From assembly GCA_021730935.1 (NCBI GenBank), contig JAKFYJ010000003.1, forward strand, positions 1 to 37,052: a DNA stretch of 37,052 nucleotides, given 5' to 3'. The stretch is from Elusimicrobiota bacterium (lineage in GTDB: Bacteria > Elusimicrobiota > Elusimicrobia > 2-02-FULL-39-32). Below, piece after piece: positions 4,660 to 16,953 of the stretch. The position numbers and the translations under genes are program-made. Below the pieces are notes generated by a model. It searched no databases, was not told the origin of the DNA, and was given only the letters and a program-made list of their open reading frames with translations. The stretch's first letter is position 1; every line of letters starts with the position of its first letter.

Positions 4660-4920
4660 ATGAAGCCCGGACAAGAAATTATTGATCAAGGCATGCAAGA
4701 CCTTGCCCAGGGCCGGGAGACTATCCCCGCGCTCTTGGTTTCGATTGGTGCTCCGAGGTTGAGGCGTCTGGGAATGTCAATCGAGCATCCCCTGCTTTCC
4801 CCCGAACATCGTCTTTATGACAAATTAAGGATGTCCAACCCCGACGCGTCTCATTCCCAATACAACGCATGGATCCGGCGTCTGGTGAGCTTCGAGCGGG
4901 CGGCTGAATGCGCGAAATAA
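4660..4920 (+). CDS. Hypothetical 86-residue partner of a nucleotidyltransferase
   Basis: I do not recognise this family. It is mostly helical, with a charged middle (IEHPLLSPEHRLYDKLR) and no signal peptide or membrane segment. Its stop overlaps the ATG of the nucleotidyltransferase-like gene by 13 bases, indicating coupling. Its promoter carries an inverted repeat, as expected if this small protein is the antitoxin and repressor of a two-gene toxin-antitoxin or abortive-infection module. That role is inferred from layout only. There is no ribosome-binding site; the transcript probably begins almost at the ATG. Confidence 0.65.
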   Translation: MKPGQEIIDQGMQDLAQGRETIPALLVSIGAPRLRRLGMSIEHPLLSPEHRLYDKLRMSNPDASHSQYNAWIRRLVSFERAAECAK

Positions 4921-5432
4921 CAAGCCAGGAAAAAATTCAGAAGTTCATGCGCTCCTTTGGGAAAAGCGCGACACAAGAAGCCCGCGTTTATTTCACAGGC
5001 GGCACAACAGCAGTTTTGATGGGTTGGCGTGAGACGACCATCGACATTGACATGCGGTTTAATCCAGAGTTGGACGAACTGTTTCGCGCCCTTCCCGCGC
5101 TCAAAGAAGAACTGCAAATCAATATTGAATTGGCCGCTCCTTCCGATTTCATCCCTGCGCTTCCTGGCTGGGAAGAGCGTTGCGAGTTCATTGGGCGCGA
5201 AGGTAAAGTCACTTTTTATCATTATGATCCATATAGCCAGGCCTTGGCAAAGATCGAACGTGGCCACACCCAGGATTTGAAGGATGTTGAATCCATGTTT
5301 CAAAATGGGCTCCTGGACCGGCAAAAACTTCTTTCATTGTATCAGGCCATTGAATCCCAATTGCATCGATATCCTGCGATTGATCCCAAGACTTTTTCTC
5401 TCGCAGTTCATCAGATCACCGACAAGAAATAA
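4908..5432 (+). CDS. DUF6036-like / MNT-fold nucleotidyltransferase
   Basis: This 174-residue protein resembles the DUF6036 nucleotidyltransferases, related to the MNT and AbiEii-type enzymes found in two-gene defence or toxin-antitoxin modules. The core is FTGGTTAVLMGWRETTIDIDM (about residues 29-49): a GG motif followed by a D-x-D metal-binding pair, as in pol-beta-fold nucleotidyltransferases. A later conserved lysine region (LAKIERGHTQDLKDVESM) is also typical. It follows the small upstream gene with a 13-base overlap and converges with intI, only one base separating their ends. It may be AMP-transferring or toxic; this is inference. Confidence 0.75.
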   Translation: MREITSQEKIQKFMRSFGKSATQEARVYFTGGTTAVLMGWRETTIDIDMRFNPELDELFRALPALKEELQINIELAAPSDFIPALPGWEERCEFIGREGKVTFYHYDPYSQALAKIERGHTQDLKDVESMFQNGLLDRQKLLSLYQAIESQLHRYPAIDPKTFSLAVHQITDKK

Positions 5433-5433
5433 C

Positions 5434-6438
5434 CTAAACCACTTCCAGCGCGACTTCTCTCCGAAATTCGTTTTCCCGTTCCATCTGATCCAATGGGCTG
5501 ACAAACCGCTCGCTGGGCTTTTTCATGACATGAAGATAAATCTTCGTGGTTTCCATGCTGTTGTGCCCCAAAATTTCCTGAATTTCCCGGATGTTGGCGC
5601 CGGATTCGAGCAGGTGAGTGGCAAAGCTGTGACGGAAAGTGTGAGAGGACATCCGTTTTGTGATGCCGGCCAAACGCGACGCTTTGCGGAATTCTCTGTT
5701 GACGGAATCTTCGTGGATATGGTGGCGCCCTGTTCTGCCGCTTCTCGGGTCCCTCGACAAAGTTTTCGACGGGAAAACGTATTGCCAGCCCCATTCCTTG
5801 CCTGCGTTGAGAAATTTTCTCTCAATTGCATAGGGCAAATAAACCTGACCCAACCCTTTGGACAGATCGTCAAGATGCACTGCCTTGACCCATTCCAGAT
5901 GGGCCTTGAGCCCGTGTTTCACTGCTTGGGGCATCAAGGTGACGCGGTCCTTTTCACCTTTGCCGCTCCGCACGGTGATCTGCGACCTTTCAATATCCAA
6001 ATCATGGATTCGAAGCTGAAGACATTCAAACAACCGAAGGCCGGAACCGTATAATAATTGGGCGATTATTTTATAGACTCCTTGGAGAGGCGCCAAAATT
6101 TTCGCGGCTTCTGCCGAGGTCAGCACTGTGGGGACATAAAACCGTCGTTTGGCCCGCACGGAATCCGCGAAGTTTCCCAACTCTTGATTCAAAATATATT
6201 TATAAAGAAAAACGACCGCGTTGAGCGCCTGGTTTTGCGTCGAAGCAGAAACCTTTTGATCAAGAGCAAGATAAGTCAGGAATTGTTTGATGTCTGATGC
6301 TCCCATTTCCTTGGGATGTTTTTTGTTGTGAAAAAGGATGTAACGCCTGATCCAATCCACATAACTCTTTTCCGTATTGATTGAATAATGTTTCAGTCTC
6401 AACTCGTCCCTAACTTGATCCAATAGTTTTTTCTCCAT
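5434..6438 (-). CDS. intI: Integron integrase IntI
   Basis: This 334-residue tyrosine recombinase recombines attI and attC sites. Catalytic residues are visible: Arg135 (GSGLRL), Lys160 (SGKGEKDR), His266 and Arg269 (SHTFRHSFATHLL), His292 (LGH) and Tyr301 (KIYLHV). It also has the extra segment that separates IntI from XerC/D: KEWGWQYVFP followed by RSGRTGRHHIHEDSVNREF (about residues 214-250). I chose the ATG at 6438 because AAAGGACGG sits upstream and homology starts there; the frame stays open to 6588 but that extension looks non-coding. It diverges from the cassette array, the standard integron layout. I see no LexA box in its upstream region. Confidence 0.95.
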   Translation of the reverse strand: MEKKLLDQVRDELRLKHYSINTEKSYVDWIRRYILFHNKKHPKEMGASDIKQFLTYLALDQKVSASTQNQALNAVVFLYKYILNQELGNFADSVRAKRRFYVPTVLTSAEAAKILAPLQGVYKIIAQLLYGSGLRLFECLQLRIHDLDIERSQITVRSGKGEKDRVTLMPQAVKHGLKAHLEWVKAVHLDDLSKGLGQVYLPYAIERKFLNAGKEWGWQYVFPSKTLSRDPRSGRTGRHHIHEDSVNREFRKASRLAGITKRMSSHTFRHSFATHLLESGANIREIQEILGHNSMETTKIYLHVMKKPSERFVSPLDQMERENEFRREVALEVV

Positions 6439-6530
6439 AATAGCCGTCCTTTTTGCCGGATATCCACTCGCGAGGAGGGATTCAAATTTCACAGATATGA
6501 CATCATTTTTCAATTTAATCGCCGAGGGGG

Positions 6531-6548
6531 GAATTATGTCAACCTGTG
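6531..6548 (-). repeat. 18-bp inverted repeat, right copy
   Basis: The minus strand reads CACAGGTTGACATAATTC, identical to 28-45 on the plus strand. It lies about 95 bases upstream of the intI start. Confidence 0.6.
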
Positions 6549-6602
6549 TAGAAATGTCGGGTTTCCATAAACCAATAGTTATCAACAAAATATATTTATC
6601 TA

Positions 6603-6631
6603 TTGAATTTTCAAGGTTATTGGGGTATTCT
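6603..6631 (+). promoter_or_regulatory. Cassette promoter Pc (first copy)
   Basis: TTGAAT (6603-6608), a 17-base spacer and TATTCT (6626-6631) point into the array, in the place where integron Pc promoters lie. The same hexamers, spacing and part of the spacer (TCAAGGTT) recur at 11653-11681. Confidence 0.75.
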
Positions 6632-6687
6632 TGTCGTTGACAGACGAAGCACTAATCCGCAAAAATGCGGACTAATATATGTTAGGC
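6632..6687 (+). other. Primary attI recombination site
   Basis: The site ends in GTTAGGC (6681-6687), the core where the first cassette begins, and lies between intI and the first cassette. It has two copies of ACTAAT (6651-6656 and 6671-6676) around a small hairpin CCGCA-AAAA-TGCGG (6657-6670), resembling the direct repeats that bind integrase in known attI sites. The last 17 bases recur almost exactly at 11731-11744. Confidence 0.7.
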
Positions 6688-6704
6688 CCAGATAGTAGGA
6701 TTGA

Positions 6705-7040
6705 ATGAACCAGTGGAACATACCTGCGTGGCTTGAACGTGAGGTGCGGCAGCGAGACAAAAAGTGCGTATACTGCCGAATACCCATGCTTGAGTCGCCT
6801 CCTGCGGACGGATCGCGAAAATCTGTCGCGACGTGGGAGCACATCATAAACGATGCAAAAATTGTTACTCGAGAGAATATTGCGAGATGCTGTGCGTCTT
6901 GCAATTCAAGTAAAGGAACAAAGAAGCTTTCAGTCTGGATTGAGTCAAGTTACTGCAAGCGGCGCGGCATTGGCCGCGACACCGTTGCGGATGTCGTTAA
7001 ACAAGCTTTGGGCTGTATAAAGATACCCCTTGACAAATAA
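6705..7040 (+). CDS. HNH-family endonuclease (cassette 1)
   Basis: This 111-residue protein is a compact Cys4-HNH nuclease. Zinc ligands are Cys21 and Cys24 (CVYC) and the pair around CCASC (residues 62-66). The active-site His is His46 (WEHII), with Asn and Lys in NSSKGTKKL. Members cut DNA or RNA in restriction, homing or phage-defence contexts; the target here is unknown. The ATG has AGGATT just upstream and lies 24 bases after the attI core. No attC separates it from brnTA, so the three genes share one cassette. Confidence 0.8.
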   Translation: MNQWNIPAWLEREVRQRDKKCVYCRIPMLESPPADGSRKSVATWEHIINDAKIVTRENIARCCASCNSSKGTKKLSVWIESSYCKRRGIGRDTVADVVKQALGCIKIPLDK

Positions 7041-7058
7041 TTATATTATAATTATACT
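7030..7058 (+). promoter_or_regulatory. Internal promoter of brnTA
   Basis: TTGACA (7030-7035), 17 bases and TATACT (7053-7058) form a strong promoter inside cassette 1, overlapping the end of the HNH gene. The spacer and downstream part is an AT-rich near-palindrome (7038-7065), a plausible BrnA operator. The ATG of brnT lies six bases after the -10, so the message is probably leaderless. Confidence 0.75.
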
Positions 7059-7064
7059 ATAATT

Positions 7065-7358
7065 ATGTCAAAACTCCGGTTTGATTGGGATCCTCATAAA
7101 AATGCGTCTAATCAAAAGAAGCACGGAATTTCCTTTGAAGAAGCCCAAACTGCATTTTATGATGAAAACGGTAGAATGATGCATGATCCAGATCACTCAG
7201 AACAAGAGGACAGATTTATCTTGCTTGGAATGACAACCAAACCGCGCTTGCTTGCCGTTTGCCACTGTTATAGGTCTCAGGAATCAGTGATTCGTCTTAT
7301 TTCAGCGCGAAAAGCGACAAAAAAAGAGCACCGACAATATGGAGGACTTTTATCATGA
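7065..7358 (+). CDS. brnT: BrnT-family ribonuclease toxin (cassette 1)
   Basis: BrnT is a RelE-fold toxin that blocks translation by RNA cleavage. Family features are FDWDPHKNASNQKKHGISFEE at the N-terminus, a central EDRFILLG strand, and the RLISARKATKKEHRQY helix near the C-terminus. At 97 residues it has the usual size. The stop overlaps the brnA ATG by four bases. It has its own strong promoter within the cassette, so its expression does not depend on Pc; this would help stabilise the array through addiction, as argued for other integron toxin-antitoxin cassettes. Confidence 0.93.
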   Translation: MSKLRFDWDPHKNASNQKKHGISFEEAQTAFYDENGRMMHDPDHSEQEDRFILLGMTTKPRLLAVCHCYRSQESVIRLISARKATKKEHRQYGGLLS

Positions 7359-7564
7359 GAAAGGAATACGATTTTTCAAAATCTCAAAGAAACCCCTATC
7401 CCCCGATGCTGAAGAAGCAAATCACGATCCGCATCGAGGAAGATACTATTAATTATTTTAAAGGCCTTGCCACAAAATCCGGCATTCCTTACCAGAACCT
7501 TATTAACCTGTTTCTTCGCGATTGCGCCCACTCTCATAAAACGATTGTTCATAAGTGGGCCTAA
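7355..7564 (+). CDS. brnA: BrnA-family antitoxin (cassette 1)
   Basis: This 69-residue ribbon-helix-helix antitoxin neutralises BrnT and represses the operon. The family signature LKKQITIRIEEDTINYFKGLA and then IPYQNLINLFLRDCA is clear. The ATG overlaps the toxin stop. The stop codon TAA lies inside the first attC core (GCCTAAC), typical of genes packed tightly into integron cassettes. Confidence 0.93.
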   Translation: MRKEYDFSKSQRNPYPPMLKKQITIRIEEDTINYFKGLATKSGIPYQNLINLFLRDCAHSHKTIVHKWA

Positions 7565-7624
7565 CAATGCGATGGAGCGTATGAAAATGCAACGCATTTT
7601 CAACGCTCATCTTAGTCGTTAGGC
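7559..7624 (+). other. attC site 1
   Basis: 66 bp from GCCTAAC to GTTAGGC. Inner arms AGCGT and ACGCT and the hairpin AAAATGC/GCATTTT give the folded-site architecture. TGGGCCTAAC here is the exact reverse complement of GTTAGGCCCA at the start of cassette 1 (6681-6690). Confidence 0.9.
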
Positions 7625-7635
7625 GGGAGGTGGCT

Positions 7636-8133
7636 ATGACAAATATTTACTTATTGATAATGCAGATTGATAATTATGTCAGCAGTCTCGGGCCAATTAT
7701 CCTTTCCGTTGTAGCTTTTTTTGGAATTTATATGCTGTGGAAATCTGATGAGCAAACGGCCAAAGAAAGCTTCATGCCCCTATTAGTCGGATGGATACTT
7801 CTAATCATTTCCTTGTGTGAGATCTTGCATATTTTACCTTTCTTACCCATGTTTTATGGGTATACTTTTAATATCTTTATATTAATCGTCCTCAACACAA
7901 TACTCATGCTAGCCGGTTCAATCTCGCTTATTCGTAAGCATCATTTTGCTTTAACTTGCTTAAGCATAATTTTCCTCGGTTATTTTGGAATGATGATTTG
8001 GTATTTTATTCAAATATTTAGCAGCTCACTGCCAAATATTATGTCGATTGTAATAAACTTAGCCAAACCCGCCGCATTTGGACTTACTTGTTGTTATGTT
8101 TGGATGTTAAAAAAGAAAAATTGCCTACATTAA
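7636..8133 (+). CDS. Membrane protein of unknown function (cassette 2)
   Basis: This 165-residue, very hydrophobic protein has about five predicted membrane segments (near residues 15-36, 47-63, 74-96, 104-126 and 133-153). It has a short basic tail with KKKNC. I do not recognise a family. The frame is open from a GTG at 7630, but GGGAGG at 7625-7630 points to the ATG at 7636. Cassette 3 carries the same GGTGGCTATGA leader. It is AT-rich compared with the flanking chromosome. Confidence 0.7.
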   Translation: MTNIYLLIMQIDNYVSSLGPIILSVVAFFGIYMLWKSDEQTAKESFMPLLVGWILLIISLCEILHILPFLPMFYGYTFNIFILIVLNTILMLAGSISLIRKHHFALTCLSIIFLGYFGMMIWYFIQIFSSSLPNIMSIVINLAKPAAFGLTCCYVWMLKKKNCLH

Positions 8134-8140
8134 TCTGCTT

Positions 8141-8207
8141 GCCTAACAAAGCGATTGAGCGTATGAAAATGCTGGCGCATTTTCAACGCTCATCTTAGGC
8201 GTTAGGC
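8141..8207 (+). other. attC site 2
   Basis: 67 bp from GCCTAAC to GTTAGGC, with AGCGTATGAAAATG against CATTTTCAACGCT as the paired arms. It ends cassette 2; the match to the cassette 2 start is limited to the 7-bp core. Confidence 0.9.
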
Positions 8208-8224
8208 ATTGGGAATAGGTGGCT

Positions 8225-8647
8225 ATGAGGCGGGCGATTTTAGGGGTAACCTTAGGTGTTTTCATAAGTATTTTGTGCAGTGTGGTTTCTAGTTATATCA
8301 TTCCGAGCGGGAATCGTGTTTGGTTGATATTCCTACACTCAATGAGCGTATTTCTTGGTGGTTTAGGGGCAGAATTCTTCTCCAAGCAGGGGTGGAAAGG
8401 TGGTGCACTGGTGGGAGTTTCTTTGACATTACTCTATGCAATTGGGATCCTTGCGATTATTTTGAGTAGAATGCAGGGCGATATAATGGATATTTTCTCT
8501 TGGGAAAAAATAGGCCCGCCAATCATATCAACCATGAAGCTCATAGTGATGCCAGGAATCACTGCTATATTCCTAGGCACAATGGGAGCCGTCATTGGTA
8601 AGCGGATTCGTGGAAAACTGTCATTGAGAACAGCCGCTCAGGTGTAA
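8225..8647 (+). CDS. Four-helix membrane protein (cassette 3)
   Basis: This 140-residue protein has four hydrophobic segments (about residues 5-25, 31-53, 57-80 and 104-125) joined by short glycine-rich loops (GGLGAE, KGGALVG), and a basic C-terminus (KRIRGK). It resembles the general small multi-helix proteins of unknown function that are common in integrons; I cannot name a family. The ATG at 8225 is preceded by AGGTGG, better than the GTG at 8219. Confidence 0.7.
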   Translation: MRRAILGVTLGVFISILCSVVSSYIIPSGNRVWLIFLHSMSVFLGGLGAEFFSKQGWKGGALVGVSLTLLYAIGILAIILSRMQGDIMDIFSWEKIGPPIISTMKLIVMPGITAIFLGTMGAVIGKRIRGKLSLRTAAQV

Positions 8648-8653
8648 TCCAAT

Positions 8654-8754
8654 GCCTAACCATTCACTCCACCGTATGAAATCCGCGCAAAATGGTGGAA
8701 CTGTTGGCAGCAATTTTCACAGTGCGGATTTCAGCGGTGAGCTCAACGTTAGGG
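8654..8754 (+). other. attC site 3
   Basis: 101 bp from GCCTAAC to GTTAGGG, with ATGAAATCCGCGC paired to GTGCGGATTTCAG. CCAATGCCTAAC is the exact reverse complement of the start of cassette 3 (GTTAGGCATTGG), a 12-bp match. Confidence 0.88.
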
Positions 8755-8761
8755 CAATAAA

Positions 8762-8974
8762 ATGAACCAACGAGAATTGGAAATGCGGAAAAGTACAGAT
8801 GCAGATCTCAATATTCTGGTGCGCAAATGGTCGCCGGGAAATCCAGATCATGACGACGCAGAACGCGAGCTTTGCCGCCGCAGGGCATTATCGAAGCAAT
8901 GGACGCGCATCACTTTATATATTGCTGCTGCCTCTTTTCTTCTTGCCGCTTTTAGTTTCTGGATTAATAAATGA
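8762..8974 (+). CDS. Small single-span membrane protein (cassette 4, first gene)
   Basis: This 70-residue protein has a charged N-terminal half (NPDHDDAERELCRRR) and one hydrophobic helix at about residues 48-67 (ITLYIAAASFLLAAFSFWI). The family is not recognised. The ATG lies eight bases after the attC core with no clear ribosome-binding site, so translation may rely on a short leader. The stop lies eight bases before the next ATG, within the ribosome-binding site of the second gene. Confidence 0.6.
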   Translation: MNQRELEMRKSTDADLNILVRKWSPGNPDHDDAERELCRRRALSKQWTRITLYIAAASFLLAAFSFWINK

Positions 8975-8981
8975 GGAAGAA

Positions 8982-9170
8982 ATGAAAAAATATACCGTCG
9001 TTGTTTATATCATCTGCCTATCTTTACTGTTCTGGGTCTGCCAAAAAGCCAATACACCGTATGTGGCCATTGCAATTGTCGTCTCATTGGCGTTCAACAC
9101 TCTCCACAGAATCGAAGATTTATTGATTGAACTTTCCCAATCAAGAAAGAACGAGCATGAATTGCCCTAA
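8982..9170 (+). CDS. Small membrane protein (cassette 4, second gene)
   Basis: This 62-residue protein has two hydrophobic stretches (VVVYIICLSLLFWVC and YVAIAIVVSLAFNTL). The longer open frame from 8799 overlaps the first gene; the ATG at 8982 behind GAGGAAG (8974-8980) is the better start. The stop TAA lies in the attC core. It is probably made together with the gene before it; a small two-component membrane unit is possible. Function unknown. Confidence 0.6.
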   Translation: MKKYTVVVYIICLSLLFWVCQKANTPYVAIAIVVSLAFNTLHRIEDLLIELSQSRKNEHELP

Positions 9171-9266
9171 CAATGCGCTGCAGCGTATGAAATCCGCGCG
9201 ATTTTGAGAACTTATGAGTAAAAATTTAAGGAAGGCGGATTTCAACGCTGAGCTCAGACGTTAGCC
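9165..9266 (+). other. attC site 4
   Basis: 102 bp from CCCTAAC to GTTAGCC, with GCGTATGAAATCCGC against GCGGATTTCAACGC. ATTGCCCTAAC is the exact reverse complement of the start of cassette 4 (GTTAGGGCAAT), including the unusual GGG. Confidence 0.9.
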
Positions 9267-9289
9267 CTCAACTATGTTGGTCAAATAAA

Positions 9290-10150
9290 ATGGAGATTAA
9301 GAATAAATTTGGATTTATTTTAATTGCATGTCATTTGTTTTCATTTATGACATCAGCGGGAGAGGTATTTCCCAATAGAGATCTTGCATGTACCGCGTTA
9401 ATAGAATTCTCAAAAGGAGGAGAGGGGTCGGGCTTTTTCTTTCTTAGAAATGGTAATACATTTTTAGTAACTGCAAAACATGTTCTCGTTAATCCTGAAA
9501 CTGGGATTCTTAGGGATAAAGAAATCACTATTACTTCTGAATCTAAGGATCCGACCGAAAATAATCAAAATATTATAAAAGTTAATCTGGTCACGGCCCA
9601 GCAAAGCGGAAGACTAAAAAGTAACGACTCTCAAGATGTCACTGTAGTTTTGTTACAAAAGGATTCTTCTGGTTCTGGCAGTGAACCAGTCCTTCTGGAC
9701 GGTGTGGAAGTAATTCAAAAATCCAAAGCTGGTTTGATTGGAGTAATTGAGGATAAAACATCTTCTTTCGCAAAAGTTTCTATATCAAACGACGTATTTG
9801 TTATCGGCTATCCAAGCTCCCTTGGAATTCGTTCCACCCCACAATTTGATTATACTCGTCCATTGCTTCGCAAAGGAATTGTGGCTGGAAAGGACAATGA
9901 AGCCCGGACAATTATCATTGATTCCCCTGTTTATTTTGGGAATAGCGGTGGGCCAGTTTTTATTAAAGATCAAGTTGCCCTTGGTATAGACAATTTTTAT
10001 CTCATTGGAGTAGTAAAACAATTTATTCCGTTTGTGGAAACCTGGACAAACCAAACAACTAAATACCAAAACATCTCTGTTTCTAATTCAGGATATTCAG
10101 TTATTGCACCGACAGATGTAATTTTAGAGCTTCTTAAGAATTGGAAATAA
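9290..10150 (+). CDS. Secreted trypsin-like serine protease (cassette 5)
   Basis: This 286-residue protein has an N-terminal signal peptide (FGFILIACHLFSFMTSAG) and a chymotrypsin-fold domain. The probable catalytic triad is His64 (VTAKHVL), Asp116 (SQDVTVV) and Ser219 (YFGNSGGPVF), all in proper order. It lacks a PDZ domain, so it is not a DegP. It probably acts in the periplasm or outside the cell; the substrate is unknown. The ATG follows the attC core by about 30 bases, and no strong ribosome-binding site is visible. Codon use is AT-rich. Confidence 0.82.
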   Translation: MEIKNKFGFILIACHLFSFMTSAGEVFPNRDLACTALIEFSKGGEGSGFFFLRNGNTFLVTAKHVLVNPETGILRDKEITITSESKDPTENNQNIIKVNLVTAQQSGRLKSNDSQDVTVVLLQKDSSGSGSEPVLLDGVEVIQKSKAGLIGVIEDKTSSFAKVSISNDVFVIGYPSSLGIRSTPQFDYTRPLLRKGIVAGKDNEARTIIIDSPVYFGNSGGPVFIKDQVALGIDNFYLIGVVKQFIPFVETWTNQTTKYQNISVSNSGYSVIAPTDVILELLKNWK

Positions 10151-10162
10151 GAAAAGCAATCG

Positions 10163-10265
10163 GGCTAACAATGCGCTGCAGCGTATGAAATCCGCGCGAT
10201 TTTGGGTAACTTATGATAAAAAATTTAAGGAAAGCGGATTTCAACGCTGAGCTTAGGCGTTAGGC
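10163..10265 (+). other. attC site 5
   Basis: 103 bp from GGCTAAC to GTTAGGC, about 90% the same as attC 4, including the central AATTTAAGGAAxGCGGATTTC stretch. The GGGCTAAC end mirrors the unusual GTTAGCCC start of cassette 5. Confidence 0.9.
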
Positions 10266-10270
10266 ACATT

Positions 10271-10894
10271 ATGAAAGACTCAATGAACATTATAACTGGA
10301 TTTCTGATTTTAATATCTGCAGGACATCTGTGTGCCGCAGATCTTCGGAAAGAAATTGCAGCATGCTCTGCCTTAGACGGTGATTTAGACCGTCTCCAAT
10401 GTTTCGACAACTTATCACGGTCTTTCGAGCTAAATAAGCCAAAAATTATCCGAAAGATACATCCAAAAGCAGGAAAATGGATTCTTCAAGTTGACCAAAA
10501 TCCTATTGATGACACTAAAACTACAGTTGCGATTCTAAATGCTGATAGTGGAAAATCCAAGCAGGGCAATACTGTCTCACTAATTTTAAGATGCATGAGT
10601 AATAAACTTGAATCTTACATAACGTGGAATGATTACCTAGGATCAGATAGGACAGAAGTAACGATTAGAATTGGAACAAATACAGCCACAACAAGCTTTT
10701 GGGCTCTCTCATCGGATAACACCTCATCATTCTATCCCGGAGATGTTTCTGAATTTTTTAGCCAACTTTCATCCGCAAATAATTTTATAGCACAGGTCAC
10801 ACCATATAATGAAAATCCAACAACAGCAATTTTCGATACTACGGGAGCAGGAAAAGTAATTAGGCCCATACTTCAAACTTGTGGAAATAATTAA
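10271..10894 (+). CDS. VasI/TagO-like secreted protein (cassette 6)
   Basis: This 207-residue protein has a signal peptide (residues about 1-22) and resembles VasI/TagO, an accessory protein first described with type VI secretion loci. Family wording is visible: CSALDGDLDRLQCFDNL, GKWILQ followed by NPIDDTKTTV, LRCMSNKLESYITW, NDYLGSDRTEVTIRIG and VTPYNENPTTAIFDTTG. No other type VI gene is present, so it is probably either a free-standing member or cargo acquired through the integron. The ATG lies close behind the attC core. Confidence 0.78.
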   Translation: MKDSMNIITGFLILISAGHLCAADLRKEIAACSALDGDLDRLQCFDNLSRSFELNKPKIIRKIHPKAGKWILQVDQNPIDDTKTTVAILNADSGKSKQGNTVSLILRCMSNKLESYITWNDYLGSDRTEVTIRIGTNTATTSFWALSSDNTSSFYPGDVSEFFSQLSSANNFIAQVTPYNENPTTAIFDTTGAGKVIRPILQTCGNN

Positions 10895-10897
10895 TGT

Positions 10898-10981
10898 GCC
10901 TAACAAATCGCTGCAGCGTATGAATCCCGCGCAAAATAAGTTTAAGGAAGCGGGTTTTGCGGCTTAGCTCAAACGTTAGGC
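10898..10981 (+). other. attC site 6
   Basis: 84 bp from GCCTAAC to GTTAGGC. TAATGTGCCTAAC is the exact reverse complement of the cassette 6 start (GTTAGGCACATTA), a 13-bp match. Confidence 0.9.
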
Positions 10982-11005
10982 ATTACAATTTTGTAAAATG
11001 ACCTC

Positions 11006-11266
11006 GTGCCTGAAATAAGTCGTTTCTTCGGAATCATCATTCGAATGTTTTTCGATGATCATAATCCACCGCATTTTCATGTGGAATATAGCGGCAAGAA
11101 GGCTGTTTTTGATCTGCGCGGGAACATCCTTCAAGGGGATTTGAGATCGAAAGTAGCAGTGAGATTGGTGAGAGATTGGATCGATTTACATTCTTCTGAG
11201 TTGGAGTCTGATTGGAAACTGGCACAACAAGGTAAACCGCTTAAGAAAATCAAACCCCTTGAGTAA
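11006..11266 (+). CDS. DUF4160 protein (cassette 7)
   Basis: This 86-residue protein fits DUF4160: MPEISRFFGIIIRMFFDDHNPPHFHVEY, then the charged middle strand and a W-x-x-H-x-x-EL helix. DUF4160 proteins are usually encoded next to DUF2442 proteins, as here, and the pair is often treated as a putative toxin-antitoxin module. The start is a GTG. There is only an 11-base gap to the next gene, with AAAGGAG as its ribosome-binding site. Confidence 0.85.
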   Translation: MPEISRFFGIIIRMFFDDHNPPHFHVEYSGKKAVFDLRGNILQGDLRSKVAVRLVRDWIDLHSSELESDWKLAQQGKPLKKIKPLE

Positions 11267-11277
11267 AGGAGTTCACG

Positions 11278-11568
11278 ATGTGGAACTTAAATGACATTAT
11301 AAAAATAAAATATCTAAGACCGTATATCTATTTTGTTGAATTTGATGATGGAGTCAAAGGAGAAATAGACTTAAGCTTTCTTTTAGCCAAGGGGCCAGTT
11401 TTTAAGCCTCTCAAAAATATCAAACTTTTCCGTTCGGCTCATATTGAAGGCGGGACCATCAGCTGGCCGAATGGCGCGGATGTAGCACCTGAATCATTAT
11501 ATGAGGCCATCCAAGGTCGTACAACAAGCGATTCAAGCAAGTATATCTCGAGGCGTCGAGCTGCTTAG
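11278..11568 (+). CDS. DUF2442 protein (cassette 7)
   Basis: This 96-residue DUF2442 protein has YIYFVEFDDGVKGEIDLSFLL and the characteristic GTISWPNGADVAPESLYE segment. It is the partner of the DUF4160 gene just before it. No attC is found behind it, although every cassette before it has one; the next 170 bases hold a hairpin and a second promoter-attI module. Function is unknown beyond the putative toxin-antitoxin link. Confidence 0.85.
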   Translation: MWNLNDIIKIKYLRPYIYFVEFDDGVKGEIDLSFLLAKGPVFKPLKNIKLFRSAHIEGGTISWPNGADVAPESLYEAIQGRTTSDSSKYISRRRAA

Positions 11569-11598
11569 CTCATTATAACCCACCCTAGTTTTTCCGAA

Positions 11599-11626
11599 AA
11601 ACCTCGGATTTTTCAAAACGAGGTTT
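11599..11626. terminator. Inverted repeat, possible terminator
   Basis: AAACCTCG (11599-11606) pairs with CGAGGTTT (11619-11626) around a 12-base loop. It lies 30 bases after the DUF2442 stop and ahead of the second cassette promoter. No strong U-run follows, so a terminator role is only possible. Confidence 0.35.
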
Positions 11627-11652
11627 ATTCCAAAACCAATTAATATTTGTGA

Positions 11653-11681
11653 TTGAATAATCAAGGTTTATCGCCTATACT
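11653..11681 (+). promoter_or_regulatory. Second cassette promoter (Pc copy)
   Basis: TTGAAT (11653-11658), 17 bases and TATACT (11676-11681) match the Pc layout at 6603-6631, including TCAAGGTT in the spacer. It would restart transcription for the downstream half of the array. Confidence 0.75.
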
Positions 11682-11748
11682 TACCTTAATCCAGGCCAAA
11701 TTTTCGACCTGGATATTCCGGTGTTTATCGGACTAATCTATGTTGGTC
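11682..11748 (+). other. Second attI-like site inside the array
   Basis: The end CGGACTAATCTATGTTGG matches the primary attI end CGGACTAATATATGTTAG with two differences. As there, a small inverted repeat (CCAGG/CCTGG, 11691-11712) lies upstream. The cassette that follows starts with GTTGGTCCGTGC and ends with its exact reverse complement, so a true recombination crossover took place at 11742. No integrase gene is adjacent. Confidence 0.65.
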
Positions 11749-11796
11749 CGTGCAATTGCTTAGACTTGCGTGGGTGTCAAGCGTAGAGGGGGCTTA

Positions 11797-12120
11797 ATGT
11801 TTGATTGGAAGTTATATCTTCATGGTTTCGCTTGGATGTTTTTCATGGTTTCACCTATTCTTGAACTAATAATTTTAAGTGCAATGTATAGCTCCAATAC
11901 TCCTAGGTGTCAACGCCCAATTTTTAATGCTATGGGTGTGAGTATTCCAATAATTATTTTAATCATGTGTTTATGTGACATTTTTACTCCAAGTACCCCG
12001 AGCGCAAATATACGCTTGGATCTTGGTCTTATGCTTCCCTTAGCTATAGTAAATAGTATCTTTCTCATTGTGGCGTTTTGGATTATTTCTAAAGACAAAG
12101 TACAAGATAAGATGGAGTGA
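11797..12120 (+). CDS. Membrane protein of unknown function (cassette 8)
   Basis: This 107-residue protein has three hydrophobic segments (about residues 8-32, 42-62 and 78-98) and a short charged tail. The open frame begins at a GTG at 11770, but AGAGGGGG just before 11797 supports the ATG there. No family is recognised. It is the first gene behind the second promoter-attI module and is AT-rich like other cassette genes. Confidence 0.65.
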   Translation: MFDWKLYLHGFAWMFFMVSPILELIILSAMYSSNTPRCQRPIFNAMGVSIPIIILIMCLCDIFTPSTPSANIRLDLGLMLPLAIVNSIFLIVAFWIISKDKVQDKME

Positions 12121-12154
12121 TAAACTTTATTTTTGAGCTTTTGCTTGCAGCACG

Positions 12155-12238
12155 GACCAACAATTCGCTGGAGCGTATGAAACCCGCGCAAAATAAGTTT
12201 AAGGAAGCGGGTTTCAACGCTCAGCTCTGACGTTAGGC
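12155..12238 (+). other. attC site 8
   Basis: 84 bp from GACCAAC to GTTAGGC, about the same inside as attC 6 (GCGTATGAAACCCGCGC, AAATAAGTTTAAGGAAGCGG). GCACGGACCAAC exactly mirrors the unusual cassette 8 start GTTGGTCCGTGC. Confidence 0.9.
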
Positions 12239-12260
12239 AGCTGATCACAGGAGGTTTTTA

Positions 12261-12812
12261 ATGCGCAAGATCTCAGGTGTAATTTTGTCTTTAATTTTAT
12301 ATTCCAGCTCCCATTTAAATCTGCATGCGGAATCCATATATCTTTCAAATGAAAATGTTCAAAAAAAGTCGGAGGCCGCTTCCAGGAATCAAACGTCTAA
12401 AAAGAGATTGCCTCAACCTTCTAGCAATTCTGGGAGGGAGCAGAAATCGCCAGTAGAATCCGGAGAGACGCAACCTGAGGCGCCGCCTCAAACTTCAAAT
12501 ACTCCTCAGGACACTTCAGATTCTGACCAGGTTTTGAAACAGGTTGCGGATGGGCTTGAAAAGGGCGATATCGCAGCGATTCTAAAGCATTTTGATCCGC
12601 AATGTCGAAATAATTATGAATCAAGTTTTAAAAAATTTAGTTCGGGCAAGCTTGCGGAATGGGCCAATAGCTATCGTAATGCAAAATTCATAAAAGATTA
12701 TAAAGGGGAATTAAGGATATATAAAATGCCTATAAAAATCCCGAGCGGTGAAACTATTGAAACTGAAATGACGCTTTGCAAGGGACTTTCTGGATGGCTT
12801 ATCGGTAAATAA
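12261..12812 (+). CDS. Secreted protein with a Pro/Ser/Gln-rich linker (cassette 9)
   Basis: This 183-residue protein has a signal peptide (residues about 1-23), then a low-complexity linker rich in Ser, Gln, Pro and Glu (about 30-88), then a compact C-terminal domain (about 89-183). The C-terminal domain starts VLKQVADGLEKGDIAAILKHFDP, a pattern like the NTF2-like/DUF4878 lipid or ligand-binding folds; that link is tentative. AGGAGG lies seven bases before the ATG. Likely periplasmic or surface exposed. Confidence 0.72.
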   Translation: MRKISGVILSLILYSSSHLNLHAESIYLSNENVQKKSEAASRNQTSKKRLPQPSSNSGREQKSPVESGETQPEAPPQTSNTPQDTSDSDQVLKQVADGLEKGDIAAILKHFDPQCRNNYESSFKKFSSGKLAEWANSYRNAKFIKDYKGELRIYKMPIKIPSGETIETEMTLCKGLSGWLIGK

Positions 12813-12817
12813 GGGCA

Positions 12818-12895
12818 GCCTAACAATGCGCTGGAGCGTATGCTCGGGGTCCCCAAAGAGTGGTCCCCTCGTAACGCTGAGCTTAGGCGTCGGAT
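12818..12895 (+). other. attC site 9
   Basis: 78 bp from GCCTAAC to GTCGGAT; the last core is unusual (GTC rather than GTT). Its hairpin arms (GCTCGGGGTCCCC against GTGGTCCCCTCG) differ from the other sites. Confidence 0.8.
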
Positions 12896-12915
12896 TCCAA
12901 GGAGAAAGAATTATT

Positions 12916-13401
12916 GTGAAAATAATTAAATGTATTTGTCTCGTTTCGATGGGGCTTATTCTCGCCGGTTTTTCTCCGTCGATCATGCGTTCTGTCACAG
13001 AAAAAGATGATGAAAATGCCAAACTCTTTGAGCCGGAGCCAGCCAGGGCGCTCGTGTATGTGTTCCGGGACAATTCCTTTCTCGGACAAAGAGCGGCGAG
13101 CCAATTGGTTGTCAATAATGTGCCAGTCACAAAAAATGAACGAAATCAATTCAGTGTTGTTTCTCTTGCTTCCGGCACTTATAACTTCTTCTCTTATTCG
13201 TCCGGGGAGTCAAGCGTCACGGTGAATCTCATTCATAACAAAAGCAAATCCCCTATAACGGTCATGGCCGAACCGGGAAAAATTTATTATTTCCAGGAAG
13301 TGTTTAAACCCATGGGAGGATTTATTTTAAAAACTATTTCTGAAGAAGAAGCTAAACCAAAAATAAGAAAATGCAAGTTGGCGGCGCTTCACCAGCTATG
13401 A
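12916..13401 (+). CDS. DUF2846-like secreted protein (cassette 10)
   Basis: This 161-residue protein has an N-terminal signal-like helix (IKCICLVSMGLILAGFS) and a domain resembling DUF2846: ALVYVFRDNSFLGQRAASQL, a short beta repeat, SGTYNFFSY and PGKIYYFQEV. Family members are usually periplasmic or lipoproteins of unknown role. The frame is open from 12826 inside the attC, so I choose the GTG at 12916, which has AAGGAG upstream at 12899-12904. Confidence 0.72.
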   Translation: MKIIKCICLVSMGLILAGFSPSIMRSVTEKDDENAKLFEPEPARALVYVFRDNSFLGQRAASQLVVNNVPVTKNERNQFSVVSLASGTYNFFSYSSGESSVTVNLIHNKSKSPITVMAEPGKIYYFQEVFKPMGGFILKTISEEEAKPKIRKCKLAALHQL

Positions 13402-13413
13402 ATGTTCTTTGGC

Positions 13414-13489
13414 ATCCAACCCATCGTCGCAGTCGACAAATGCCACCGCTGTCGCCGTGCCATTTGCAGCAGAACTCTATTTGTTAGGC
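13414..13489 (+). other. attC site 10 (divergent)
   Basis: 76 bp from ATCCAAC to GTTAGGC, with no AGCGTATGAAA arm; the inner pairing is AAATGCCA against TGCCATTT with two mismatches. Its ATCCAAC end mirrors the unusual GTCGGAT start of cassette 10, with one mismatch. Confidence 0.65.
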
Positions 13490-13499
13490 ATCATTTACA

Positions 13500-13820
13500 A
13501 TGAAAAATTCTAAACTCCAAATTGGGGTTTCAATTATTCTGGTTATGGGTATCTTTTTTCTGGATTTTCGCTTTATGCGTCCCGGATCAGAGGTTACATC
13601 GACTGCTCTAGTGTCGAATGAGCGTACTTATTCTTCTGCGGAAGCCGAAGGCGGGCCCTTCCGTTATTTTATTGTGCAGCTGAATAATGGTTCCAAAGTA
13701 AATGCCCAAGTGGATAATTCTCTGATTTGTAAACCTGGGGGTCGTGTGCGAATTAAGTACTGGAAAAGCTTCGTGTTCGGCAGACCCACATTTTACTCTG
13801 TTATTGATTATCAGGAATGA
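13500..13820 (+). CDS. Membrane-anchored protein of unknown function (cassette 11)
   Basis: This 106-residue protein has one N-terminal membrane helix (about residues 7-24) and a small beta-rich domain (VTSTALVSNERTY, RYFIVQLNNGSKVNAQV, GGRVRIKYWKS, TFYSVIDY). The domain looks like an OB-like or NfeD-like barrel; that is a guess from strand pattern. The ATG follows the attC core by 10 bases. The stop TGA lies directly before the next attC. Confidence 0.65.
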   Translation: MKNSKLQIGVSIILVMGIFFLDFRFMRPGSEVTSTALVSNERTYSSAEAEGGPFRYFIVQLNNGSKVNAQVDNSLICKPGGRVRIKYWKSFVFGRPTFYSVIDYQE

Positions 13821-13821
13821 C

Positions 13822-13865
13822 GCCTAACAATGCGCGGTAGCGTATGCTGAACTTAGGCGTTAGAT
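13822..13865 (+). other. attC site 11 (very short)
   Basis: Only 44 bp from GCCTAAC to GTTAGAT. It keeps CAATGCG and GCGTATGCTGAACTTAGGCGT, the outer parts of neighbouring sites, but lacks the whole central hairpin. GACGCCTAAC mirrors the cassette 11 start GTTAGGCATC with one mismatch. Confidence 0.8.
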
Positions 13866-13878
13866 GGAGTCAAATTGA

Positions 13879-14289
13879 ATGAAAACATCTATTTATCTCG
13901 CACTATTTATATCCTTTTTGTTCCCCGCGAAAATGCTAGCGCAAGATGTAAAGGCTCCTCTGGTGGGGAAAGTTAAGTATTCGGAAGGAGGAGAGCCTGG
14001 CTGTGGCTTTTTTAAAGAAGGGGATAACACAGGCGATGTTTTACTCGATTTTGGAAGGGAGGAAGGCGCGTGGGTCAACATTGATGGCAAGGATATTAAG
14101 CTAGAAAACATAAGCCCACAAGAAGAAATAGGATCCGTATGGAAGTATAAGGCAAATAATATTACAGTTACCTTAAAACTAAAAATGACATCTAAAATGG
14201 AGTATCAGATTAAATATAAAGGACAGATGAGAGTTATACGTGATGGCAAGCAAACTGTTTTAGCAATCGTAGGTGAATGCGGTTGTTAA
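13879..14289 (+). CDS. Secreted protein of unknown function (cassette 12)
   Basis: This 136-residue protein has a clear signal peptide (IYLALFISFLFPAKMLAQ, cut near residue 22) and then a beta-rich soluble domain with CGFF and a C-terminal GECGC; the cysteines could form disulfides. No family is recognised. The ATG lies 17 bases after the attC core with no strong ribosome-binding site. The stop TAA is close to the next attC. Confidence 0.7.
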   Translation: MKTSIYLALFISFLFPAKMLAQDVKAPLVGKVKYSEGGEPGCGFFKEGDNTGDVLLDFGREEGAWVNIDGKDIKLENISPQEEIGSVWKYKANNITVTLKLKMTSKMEYQIKYKGQMRVIRDGKQTVLAIVGECGC

Positions 14290-14293
14290 CTCC

Positions 14294-14342
14294 ATCTAAC
14301 CATTTCCTCGAGCGGATGCGAGATGTGAAAACCATGTTAGTT
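14294..14342 (+). other. attC site 12 (truncated)
   Basis: AACTCCATCTAAC exactly mirrors the cassette 12 start GTTAGATGGAGTT, so the left half is real. The right half appears lost: GTTAGTT at 14336-14342 lies inside the next gene and does not mirror the end of cassette 13. Confidence 0.55.
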
Positions 14343-14675
14343 TTTCTTGCGGCTTTCTGCCTGTTCAGTTGTGATGTTAAATGGGAAAGCAAGTTTGCCG
14401 AAATTAAGACGGGGGCCACTCGCACTCAGGTCAAAAAACTAATAGGTGAGCCGTTGTCCATGAAAGATGGCATCGTTCCAAAAGTTCAATTTTGGGGACC
14501 GCAAGACAGTCTTGCCTCCGTGATTGGCGCTGGATCGCACTATGAAGAATGGACTTATAAAAATAATAAAGACGATTATTATGTTTGGTTTTCTTCCGGC
14601 GTCTTAAAGAATAATTGGATTGTTGTTGATAAGGGAGCATATCCACATGATGCAGTTTTTGAAGCAAGAAAATAA
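14316..14675 (+). CDS. BamE/SmpA-like lipoprotein (cassette 13)
   Basis: This 119-residue putative lipoprotein has the signal LVFLAAFCLFSC with the lipidated Cys19. The mature part resembles the BamE/OmlA fold: FAEIKTGATRTQVKKLIGEP, then EEWTYKNNKDDYYVWFSSG. BamE belongs to the outer-membrane assembly complex, but many small cassette lipoproteins share the fold with unknown roles. The frame continues upstream to 14277; ATG 14316 or 14334 fits the signal peptide better. It begins inside the truncated attC 12. Confidence 0.72.
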   Translation: MRDVKTMLVFLAAFCLFSCDVKWESKFAEIKTGATRTQVKKLIGEPLSMKDGIVPKVQFWGPQDSLASVIGAGSHYEEWTYKNNKDDYYVWFSSGVLKNNWIVVDKGAYPHDAVFEARK

Positions 14676-14684
14676 AGTTGTCCG

Positions 14685-14764
14685 GTCCTACAATGCGATC
14701 GAGCGTATGAAATCCAAGTTAAACTGGAATTCCGATTTATTTCATGCTGAAGCATGGCGATAAA
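14685..14764 (+). other. attC site 13 (degenerate)
   Basis: The body is plainly attC (CAATGCGATCGAGCGTATGAAATCC... TTTCATGCTGAAGC), but both ends are decayed: GTCCTAC on the left and GCGATAAA on the right. A further core-like GTCTAAC is at 14775-14781. Confidence 0.6.
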
Positions 14765-14795
14765 AATTGAGACTGTCTAACGAGTTATAAAGTCT

Positions 14796-14930
14796 ATGAA
14801 ATGCTCCCGGTGTTTAAAAGAAATTGATGATGATTCCAACTTTTGCGACCAATGCGGGGGAATTATTGAAGAGCCCCCAAACCCCGAACAAGAACCAGAG
14901 ATTTCATTTGTTGAGATATGGCATCCTTGA
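14796..14930 (+). pseudogene. Zinc-ribbon protein, N-terminal part (cassette 14, frameshifted)
   Basis: This 44-residue frame encodes a zinc ribbon with Cys3, Cys6, Cys17 and Cys20 (MKCSRCLKEI, NFCDQCGG), then an acidic Pro/Glu linker. It stops at TGA 14928. A second frame (14918-15022) continues with sequence that looks like the natural end of the protein, so one indel probably broke a gene of about 75 residues. Alternatively the two are separate overlapping genes. The cassette starts in decayed attC sequence. Confidence 0.55.
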
Positions 14931-15022
14931 TGGGCCTGGCGGCAATGAGCGTTTTTGTTCAATCAGACCAGGCAGAAGCCGCCAGAGAAATATTACGCGA
15001 AGAGCTTGGTTTTAATTTATAA
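14918..15022 (+). pseudogene. C-terminal remnant, DUF2007-like (cassette 14)
   Basis: This 34-codon frame includes SVFVQSDQAEAAREILREEL, which resembles the last helix of DUF2007 signal-transducing proteins, often found joined to zinc ribbons. It is in a different frame from the zinc ribbon just upstream. It ends four bases before the attC. Confidence 0.4.
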
Positions 15023-15025
15023 GCC

Positions 15026-15103
15026 GCCTGACCATACACTCTGTCGCATCAAATCCGCGATTAAAGAGTGCGCAAATTTCAACCCTGAGTTCAGTCGTTA
15101 ATC
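15026..15103 (+). other. attC site 14 (last in the array)
   Basis: 78 bp from GCCTGAC to GTTAATC, with CATCAAATCCGCG and AATTTCAACCCTGAG arms. Both cores deviate from the array consensus, as is usual at the old end of an array. Confidence 0.75.
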
Positions 15104-16295: not shown

Positions 16296-16308
16296 GGAAA
16301 CGGAAACC

Positions 16309-16953
16309 ATGACCCCAGAAGAAATCCTTCAGCTTCCCATCCGCGTCTATAACGGGCCGATTCATCTCGTTGCCACGGCGGAAGATTTGTCTCGCGCGGC
16401 TCAAGCGATGCGCCATGAAAAGGTGGTGGGGATCGACACGGAAACGAGGCCGGCTTTCAAGAAAGGCGAATCGTATCTGCCTTGCCTCGTGCAGGTTGCG
16501 GCGTCAAAGGCAGTTTATCTGTTTCAGCTCAAAAAAATGGATTTTTCCGGAGCTCTCACGGAGATGCTGGAGAACCCGTCCCTCATCAAGGCCGGCATTG
16601 GGCTTGCGGACGACTTCAAAAGCCTCAAAAAAGTTTTTCCCTTTGCCCAGCTCAACACGGTGGATCTGAGCCTCATCGCCCAAAAACACGGGCACAAACA
16701 GTCCAGCGTCCGCAGTCTGTCCGCGGACCTTCTGGGGTTCCGCATCACCAAGGGCGCCGCCACTTCCAACTGGTCCAACCCCCAACTTTCGCCCAAACAA
16801 ATCGCTTATGCCGCCACCGACGCCTGGGTGTGCCGCGAACTTTTCCTAAAATTTCAGCAGTTGGGATATCTTGATCAGGAAGGATTGCTTATTTCGCCAC
16901 AGTCCGAAACAAAAACGCCGCCAGAAGAATCCCGATCACCGACGTCACATTGA
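16309..16953 (+). CDS. DEDD-family 3'-5' exonuclease (RNase D / WRN exonuclease like)
   Basis: This 214-residue protein has the DEDD exonuclease motifs: VVGIDTETRP (Exo I, Asp and Glu), KAGIGLADDFKSL (Exo II) and QIAYAATDAWVCRELF (Exo III, Tyr and Asp). It lacks the HRDC domain of RNase D, so it is closer to stand-alone WRN-type exonuclease domains acting on RNA or DNA 3' ends. GAGGAAACGG precedes the ATG, 14 bases after the ATPase gene, so the two are co-transcribed. It overlaps convergent DUF4321 by 65 bases; its last residues are low-complexity. Confidence 0.87.
   Translation: MTPEEILQLPIRVYNGPIHLVATAEDLSRAAQAMRHEKVVGIDTETRPAFKKGESYLPCLVQVAASKAVYLFQLKKMDFSGALTEMLENPSLIKAGIGLADDFKSLKKVFPFAQLNTVDLSLIAQKHGHKQSSVRSLSADLLGFRITKGAATSNWSNPQLSPKQIAYAATDAWVCRELFLKFQQLGYLDQEGLLISPQSETKTPPEESRSPTSH

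Follow-up and report, generated by a model that had tools for sequence, protein, structure and literature searches.

We analysed a 37,052-nucleotide (nt) stretch of an Elusimicrobiota bacterium (hereafter the window), which is the entire contig C25 of a draft genome (G000; 2.71 Mb in 96 contigs, 95.5% complete). The window carries a real integron in which an intact integrase gene (intI) heads a series of cassettes that all run in the same direction, with attC sites between them and an attI site beside intI (Table 1). Its neighbours are chromosomal genes, with typA on the left and an AAA/DUF4143 gene, aspartate kinase, ilv genes and secY on the right; an earlier note made from the sequence letters had placed the integron between housekeeping genes. 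The same note had called the cassettes more AT-rich than the flanks, and guanine-cytosine content per kb was indeed 38-43% over 7001-15000 vs 46-56% in the flanking kilobases. The chromosomal flanks and the largely homogeneous attC family, whose best pairs are 91-95% identical, are those of a sedentary chromosomal integron. In addition, we found a second attI within the array and further attI sites at loci without intI, both in G000 and in a sister species with one integrase gene (G001).

The intI product scored 418 bits against NCBIfam TIGR02249 (cut-off 265), and its best relative of solved structure was IntI4 of Vibrio (2a3v; E 3.9e-76), matched nearly at full length over residues 55-368. 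The match to XerA was weaker than that to IntI4 (E 1.1e-31). In a quick tree of 59 rows the protein paired with the integrase of G001 at full support, and the Xer proteins of the genus split off from it, also at full support. These results ruled out a Xer protein and bore out the proposed complete intI with its IntI-specific segment, as well as the phylogeny suggested as its check. IntI was found in 30 of the 340 phylum genomes searched and in two of nine genomes of the family, which are G000 and G001, the same two that carry the attI sites described below. Elsewhere in the phylum, G166, G185, G189, G209 and G230 gave two or three IntI matches each (three in G209).

To score the attC sites we used two covariance models, R1, built from nine window sites and one site of contig C27 of G000, and R3, built from five G001 sites only; because of its training set R1 is partly circular for the window. 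R1 placed eight window sites at 71.2-98.2 bits and the site at 13822-13865, which was in training, at 38.8 bits, and gave E 1.6e-4 (15026-15103), 0.073 (14685-14754) and 0.61 (14294-14382) for sites outside training. With R3, seven window sites reached E <= 7.2e-8, two were weak matches (E 0.16 and 0.7) and the other four of the 13 candidates went unmatched; the by-eye candidate at about 13414-13489 was found by neither model. Every site scored by R1 scored higher on the plus than on the minus strand. The arms covaried, with 93.3% of cells paired vs 26-44% when slid, and also beyond shuffles, in a structure predicted from the same alignment, which favours the pairing score. Folding of the bottom strand reached z <= -3.4 in six of the 13 candidates, and the idea of thirteen equal sites was rejected; the sites at 10898 (z -0.16) and 12818 (z -1.6) folded poorly despite good R1 scores. 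Based on both models, covariation and folding, the array is real, and its distal end has decayed. Nine candidates are convincing, with paired arms in the same direction, and four are decayed or atypical, so that the 13 recognisable sites first reported shrink to nine; covariance modelling, which the earlier note had put forward as a check, nevertheless returned eight strong sites and a clear ninth rather than isolated hits.

No recognisable attC was found between the DUF4160 and DUF2442 genes and the next cassette; a second attI (attI-B) stands there instead. It scored 105.7 bits with an attI model (R2) built on six sites, and its core TAATCTATGTTGG directly precedes the next cassette. Two sites of G001 are related to it: 11590-11744 shares 76% identity over 156 base pairs (bp) with the site on contig C38, and 11652-11744 shares 77% over 93 bp with the intI-side site of contig C103. 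A stretch like the terminator-like hairpin ahead of attI-B also precedes both G001 attI-B sites. Direct alignment of the inner stretch with the attI beside intI (attI-A) gave a score of 31, reached by one of 500 shuffles (38), and a window scan with 90 bp of attI-A gave 27 at the inner stretch vs 26 elsewhere; the kinship of attI-A and attI-B became clear because the sister-species sites bridged them. As the attI-B module with its promoter-like sequence lies within the array, the window holds two arrays in tandem. The single array with one attI of the earlier note is thus right in its attI beside intI and its same-direction cassettes and wrong in its number of attI sites, and the number also fails genome-wide, with two further attI without intI on contigs C27 and C54 of G000.

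The C54 site, the seventh, lay outside the training of R2 and was found at 95.7 bits (E 3.7e-14). C27 repeats the intI-attI interval of the window (92% identity over 246 bp) with cassettes behind it and no intI, and the homology starts at the intI start codon and stops at the crossover. In G001 one attI is on C103, where two genes separate it from intI about 1.1 kb away, and C38 and C112 each carry an attI without intI. The matches of intI length listed in a search of G000 and G001 with the IntI protein fell on C25 and C103 only, and none on C27, C54, C38 or C112; the other matches were Xer-like pieces and, on C27, the attI interval. One clear attC accompanies the attI on each of C27, C38 and C112, and the attC one gene downstream of the C54 attI is weak (R1 E 0.6; E 0.028 in another search) and identical to window attC 5 over 36 nt. 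These counts fall below the two-site default of IntegronFinder 2.0 (PMC9024848; this and the other papers named here are cited from excerpts). Two cassette genes on C27 are related to each other (locus L051, 6042-6413 and 7162-7530; 43% over 118 amino acids, aa). On C103 (locus L083) a BrnA-like cassette and attC remnants lie on the 3' side of intI at 13535-13240, and the G001 intI therefore seems to be inside an array.

Within the family, R2 exceeded 90 bits in two of nine genomes, the same two with IntI, and one further relative (G006) gave a single weak match (26.2 bits, E 0.36). Over 334 phylum genomes matches were confined to G000 (four) and G001 (three), both with intI, in a scan with stricter filters and few candidates scored per genome that could miss weak relatives. 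At 64 further loci found via integrase matches the best score was 23.8 bits (E 0.44), indicating that R2 does not reach the attI of other lineages. It could be argued that this is an ordinary chromosomal integron with a single attI and that the other sites are chance matches or binning artefacts, as both genomes are draft bins and a contig ends about 0.4 kb from the C54 attI. However, the seven sites scored 94-106 bits and nothing else exceeded 24 bits in 662 kb, similar layouts occur in two bins of different species, and the flanks of C27 and C38 are matched in sister genomes (flank genes on these contigs and on C54, C103 and C112 were named by eye from the sequence), making this explanation highly improbable.

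Alignment of the seven attI sites revealed a common module in which a promoter-like pair directed towards the cassettes is followed by a leader with a hairpin and by a core, TAATnTATGTTRG, directly before the cassette. The promoter hexamers and core were invariant in 21 of 29 columns (four of six in the -35 and five of six in the -10), and the spacer, leader and upstream sequence in 11 of 85; the hairpin itself was invariant in six of 14 columns, and all seven folds placed a hairpin ahead of the core. As the copies are related, this conservation is descriptive and not an independent test.

In the textbook integron there is one integrase and one promoter at attI, and the cassettes nearest attI are expressed. 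Our preferred reading of the present loci, with a probability of about 0.72 on sequence evidence, is a multi-platform sedentary chromosomal integron in which a single IntI would act in trans on several attI platforms: attI-A next to its gene, attI-B further along the array, and those at distant loci of the chromosome that lack intI. IntI would recombine cassettes at the remote attI in trans and every module would express its own first cassettes, giving several expressed first positions per genome. If true, several platforms per integrase would increase the number of expressed slots and allow cassettes to change locus. The main rival is that whole integrons were inserted or duplicated repeatedly and lost all intI but one, leaving the remote attI as functionless leftovers. 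The homology of the C27 copy sets in at the start codon of intI, as would be expected had the gene been removed, the distal attC sites of the window are decayed, and clusters of attC sites without integrase (CALINs) are commonly regarded as degraded integrons (PMC9024848). Set against this are the diverged copies, among which only the promoter hexamers and core remain invariant, and the IntI protein search of both genomes, which matched no intI remnant at C54, C38 or C112; we consider such relics unlikely.

Sites without an insert were compared for the C27 insert, the G001 C38 unit and the window locus, and sister genomes lacked all three attI-bearing inserts at the corresponding position. At the junction, the genes that border the C27 array are separated by about 33 bp in G002 and by about 54 bp in G003, two further relatives, and G001 has about 1.4 kb of other sequence there. 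The C27 insert has AAATT at either end, which may be a target duplication or a coincidence. The C38 unit consists of a DUF6036 gene pair, attI, one cassette and attC; it is missing in G000 and G002, where the flanking stretches are 144 bp and 74 bp apart, and its right end is its attC, with no clear signature at the left end. At the window locus, typA in G001 is followed by about 0.7 kb (another gene by eye) and then by the equivalent of window 16917; as this other DNA joins them, the block from typA to 16917 is absent at the G001 site. Sequence equivalent to window 16304-16841 is found on other contigs in both G001 and G002. Behind the typA of G001 (contig C12, locus L151, about 700-1470), where G000 carries its integron, we also noted a nucleotidyltransferase-like gene by eye and then a near copy of the typA tail, as might be expected of an insertion hotspot.

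Three homology blocks abut in the window, the DUF6036 pair up to 5431, intI at 5434-6438 and the attI-A interval at 6438-6687, and each has a different neighbour in relatives. The window pair at 4661-5431 is 80% identical over 771 bp to the pair of G001 C38, where the attI-B homology block follows about 21 bp on. As the pair and attI-B are neighbours there, the intI-attI-A integron may have been inserted into an older platform without integrase. Another origin for attI-B would be an attI-ended cassette, in which attI-B replaces the attC of the DUF4160/DUF2442 genes and the unit was captured behind attC 6. The order of attC 6, two genes and attI-B is as this predicts, and such cassettes are known in class 1 and 2 integrons, where IntI1 excises and inserts them (PMC12901181). 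In the window, however, the stretch from intI to DUF2442 is flanked by what are neighbours on G001 C38, the DUF6036 pair and attI-B, an arrangement that fits an intI-attI-A integron inserted between the two, so that we regard capture as a unit as possible and rather unlikely. It bears on origin only and is compatible with one IntI serving several platforms. More tentatively still, and doubtful in our view, the attI modules could be moving parts, with IntI carrying units that end in attI, in many cases preceded by a small gene pair, to new chromosomal sites where they found new platforms. If true, integrons would be genome-wide networks with several expressed first positions, each platform with its own promoter, and they would have escaped notice because searches do not look for attI outside class 1.

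A comparison of 15 attC sites (the five weak window sites and one C103 site excluded) gave matches between contigs of one genome of up to 71.9 bits in G000 and 95.6 bits in G001, and the best match between the genomes was 34.2 bits. The attC families are thus largely genome-specific across platforms. This sharing within a genome fits one integrase shuffling among platforms; duplication could also yield it. A blastp comparison of 73 open reading frames (ORFs) from the six arrays listed four links, two between the window and G001, one within C27 and one within C103. A C54 cassette gene resembled window 12261-12812 by eye, was unlisted by blastp at 1e-3 and is not claimed.

Several results weigh against one IntI serving several platforms. 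The remote arrays are short and partly decayed, C27 having one clear attC, and the layout is known from two genomes only, draft bins 95% and 79% complete. The C27-C54 attC pair scored 32.2 bits, below the between-genome maximum, and R3 had no match at the C54 attC. The same blastp comparison found no cassette gene common to platforms of one genome, which argues against the same cassette having been exchanged often and recently. A promoter scan at attI-B gave one site vs 1.1 in shuffles, and the TTGAAT-17-TATTCT pair at attI-A was absent from a simple promoter-scan list. With the scan no better than shuffles, the promoter call draws on conservation among the sites.

The window resembles sedentary chromosomal integrons in its IntI, adjacent attI, same-direction cassettes, homogeneous attC and mostly unknown genes, and differs in having two attI in one array and attI modules elsewhere without intI. 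A typical integron has one attI close to the integrase (PMC9024848), archaeal attI have been described beside intI (PMC9668308), and assays of phage integrons and CALINs used attI1 (PMC9892861). Xanthomonas carries CALINs at several loci that are mobilisable in trans (PMC12444791), and here too cassettes occur at loci without intI while the genome has IntI elsewhere; the remote clusters differ in that each begins with an attI module containing a promoter-like sequence, a feature unreported in the excerpt of PMC12444791. The attI-type (delta-attI) cassettes of class 1 and 2 integrons likewise have attI replacing attC within an array. Their attI part is mostly 14-18 nt, in one case 244 nt and in another the complete attI1 of 65 bp, and their hosts are mobile resistance integrons (PMC12901181), unlike the modules of about 100 bp found here, which also stand alone at other chromosomal loci. 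A limited search of open-licence literature turned up no description of complete attI modules dispersed without an integrase. Cassettes ending in attI and CALINs are already known, and three or four attI modules for a single integrase are unusual. IntegronFinder 2.0 detects attI of class 1 only (PMC9024848), and as tools seek intI and attC, remote platforms would be filed as degraded clusters without integrase. CALINs of other lineages may hide attI sites, and genus-specific models like R2 could reveal them.

Table 1. Features of the integron and its left neighbour, in window positions.
Feature	Position	Strand	Content and support
Gene pair left of intI	4661-5431	+	86 aa ORF without family; DUF6036 nucleotidyltransferase (E 1.3e-10)
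intI, integron integrase	5434-6438	-	334 aa from ATG; listed ORF begins earlier, TTG at 6588
attI-A	6591-6688	+	TTGAAT-17-TATTCT pair (6603-6631), hairpin, core TAATATATGTTAGG; predicted crossover after G6681
Cassette 1	6705-7564	+	weak HNH-like ORF 6705-7040; BrnT 7065-7358; BrnA/CopG-like antitoxin 7355-7564
attC 1	7559-7624	+	R1 76.1 bits; R3 E 7.2e-8; fold z -6.7
Cassette 2 ORF	7636-8133	+	no family above cut-off
attC 2	8141-8207	+	R1, R3, folding
Cassette 3 ORF	8225-8647	+	no family
attC 3	8654-8754	+	R1, R3, folding
Cassette 4, two overlapping ORFs	8762-9170	+	no family above cut-off
attC 4	9165-9266	+	R1, R3, folding
Cassette 5, trypsin-like peptidase	9290-10150	+	Trypsin_2 E 1.6e-9
attC 5	10163-10265	+	R1, R3, folding
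Cassette 6, VasI-like	10271-10894	+	PF11319 E 7.7e-7
attC 6	10898-10981	+	R1 85.7 bits; R3 E 2.9e-10; fold z -0.16
DUF4160 and DUF2442 genes	11006-11568	+	11006-11266 and 11278-11568; between attC 6 and attI-B
Terminator-like hairpin	11593-11618	+	ahead of attI-B; 2 in stretch vs 0.2 expected
attI-B	11641-11749	+	TTGAAT-17-TATACT (11653-11681), two leader hairpins, core TAATCTATGTTGG; predicted crossover after G11742
First cassette ORF after attI-B	11770-12120	+	no family above cut-off
attC 7	12155-12238	+	R1, R3, folding
Cassette ORF	12261-12812	+	no family above cut-off
attC 8	12818-12895	+	R1 71.2 bits; R3 E 0.7; fold z -1.6
Cassette ORF, DUF2846	12916-13401	+	E 4.8e-9
Atypical attC candidate	13414-13489	+	by eye
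Cassette ORF	13500-13820	+	no family
Short attC	13822-13865	+	R1 38.8 bits (in training); R3 E 0.16
Cassette ORF	13879-14289	+	no family
Decayed attC candidate	14294-14342	+	R1 E 0.61 over 14294-14382
Cassette ORF	14277-14675	+	BamE match weak, below cut-off
Decayed attC candidate	14685-14754	+	R1 E 0.073
Cassette ORF, 44 aa, zinc-ribbon-like	14796-14930	+	first cassette of G001 C112 matches over 21 residues
Last attC, decayed	15026-15103	+	R1 E 1.6e-4, outside training

The window segment 7495-7568, from the end of the BrnA-like gene into attC 1, shares 93% identity over 74 bp with L083 5200-5127, at the distal end of the G001 C103 array, and this far exceeds the usual identity of these genomes. 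A sequence of 25-33 bp around TGTCAACCTGTGTAGAAATGTC lies at about 6524-6557, between intI and attI-A, and recurs in the genus, with six more places in G000 (E <= 0.01), eight in G001, 23 in G002 and two in G003. On contig C126 of G002 two copies face outwards around a YhcG/DUF1016 nuclease gene, and the repeat is perhaps the end of a mobile element.

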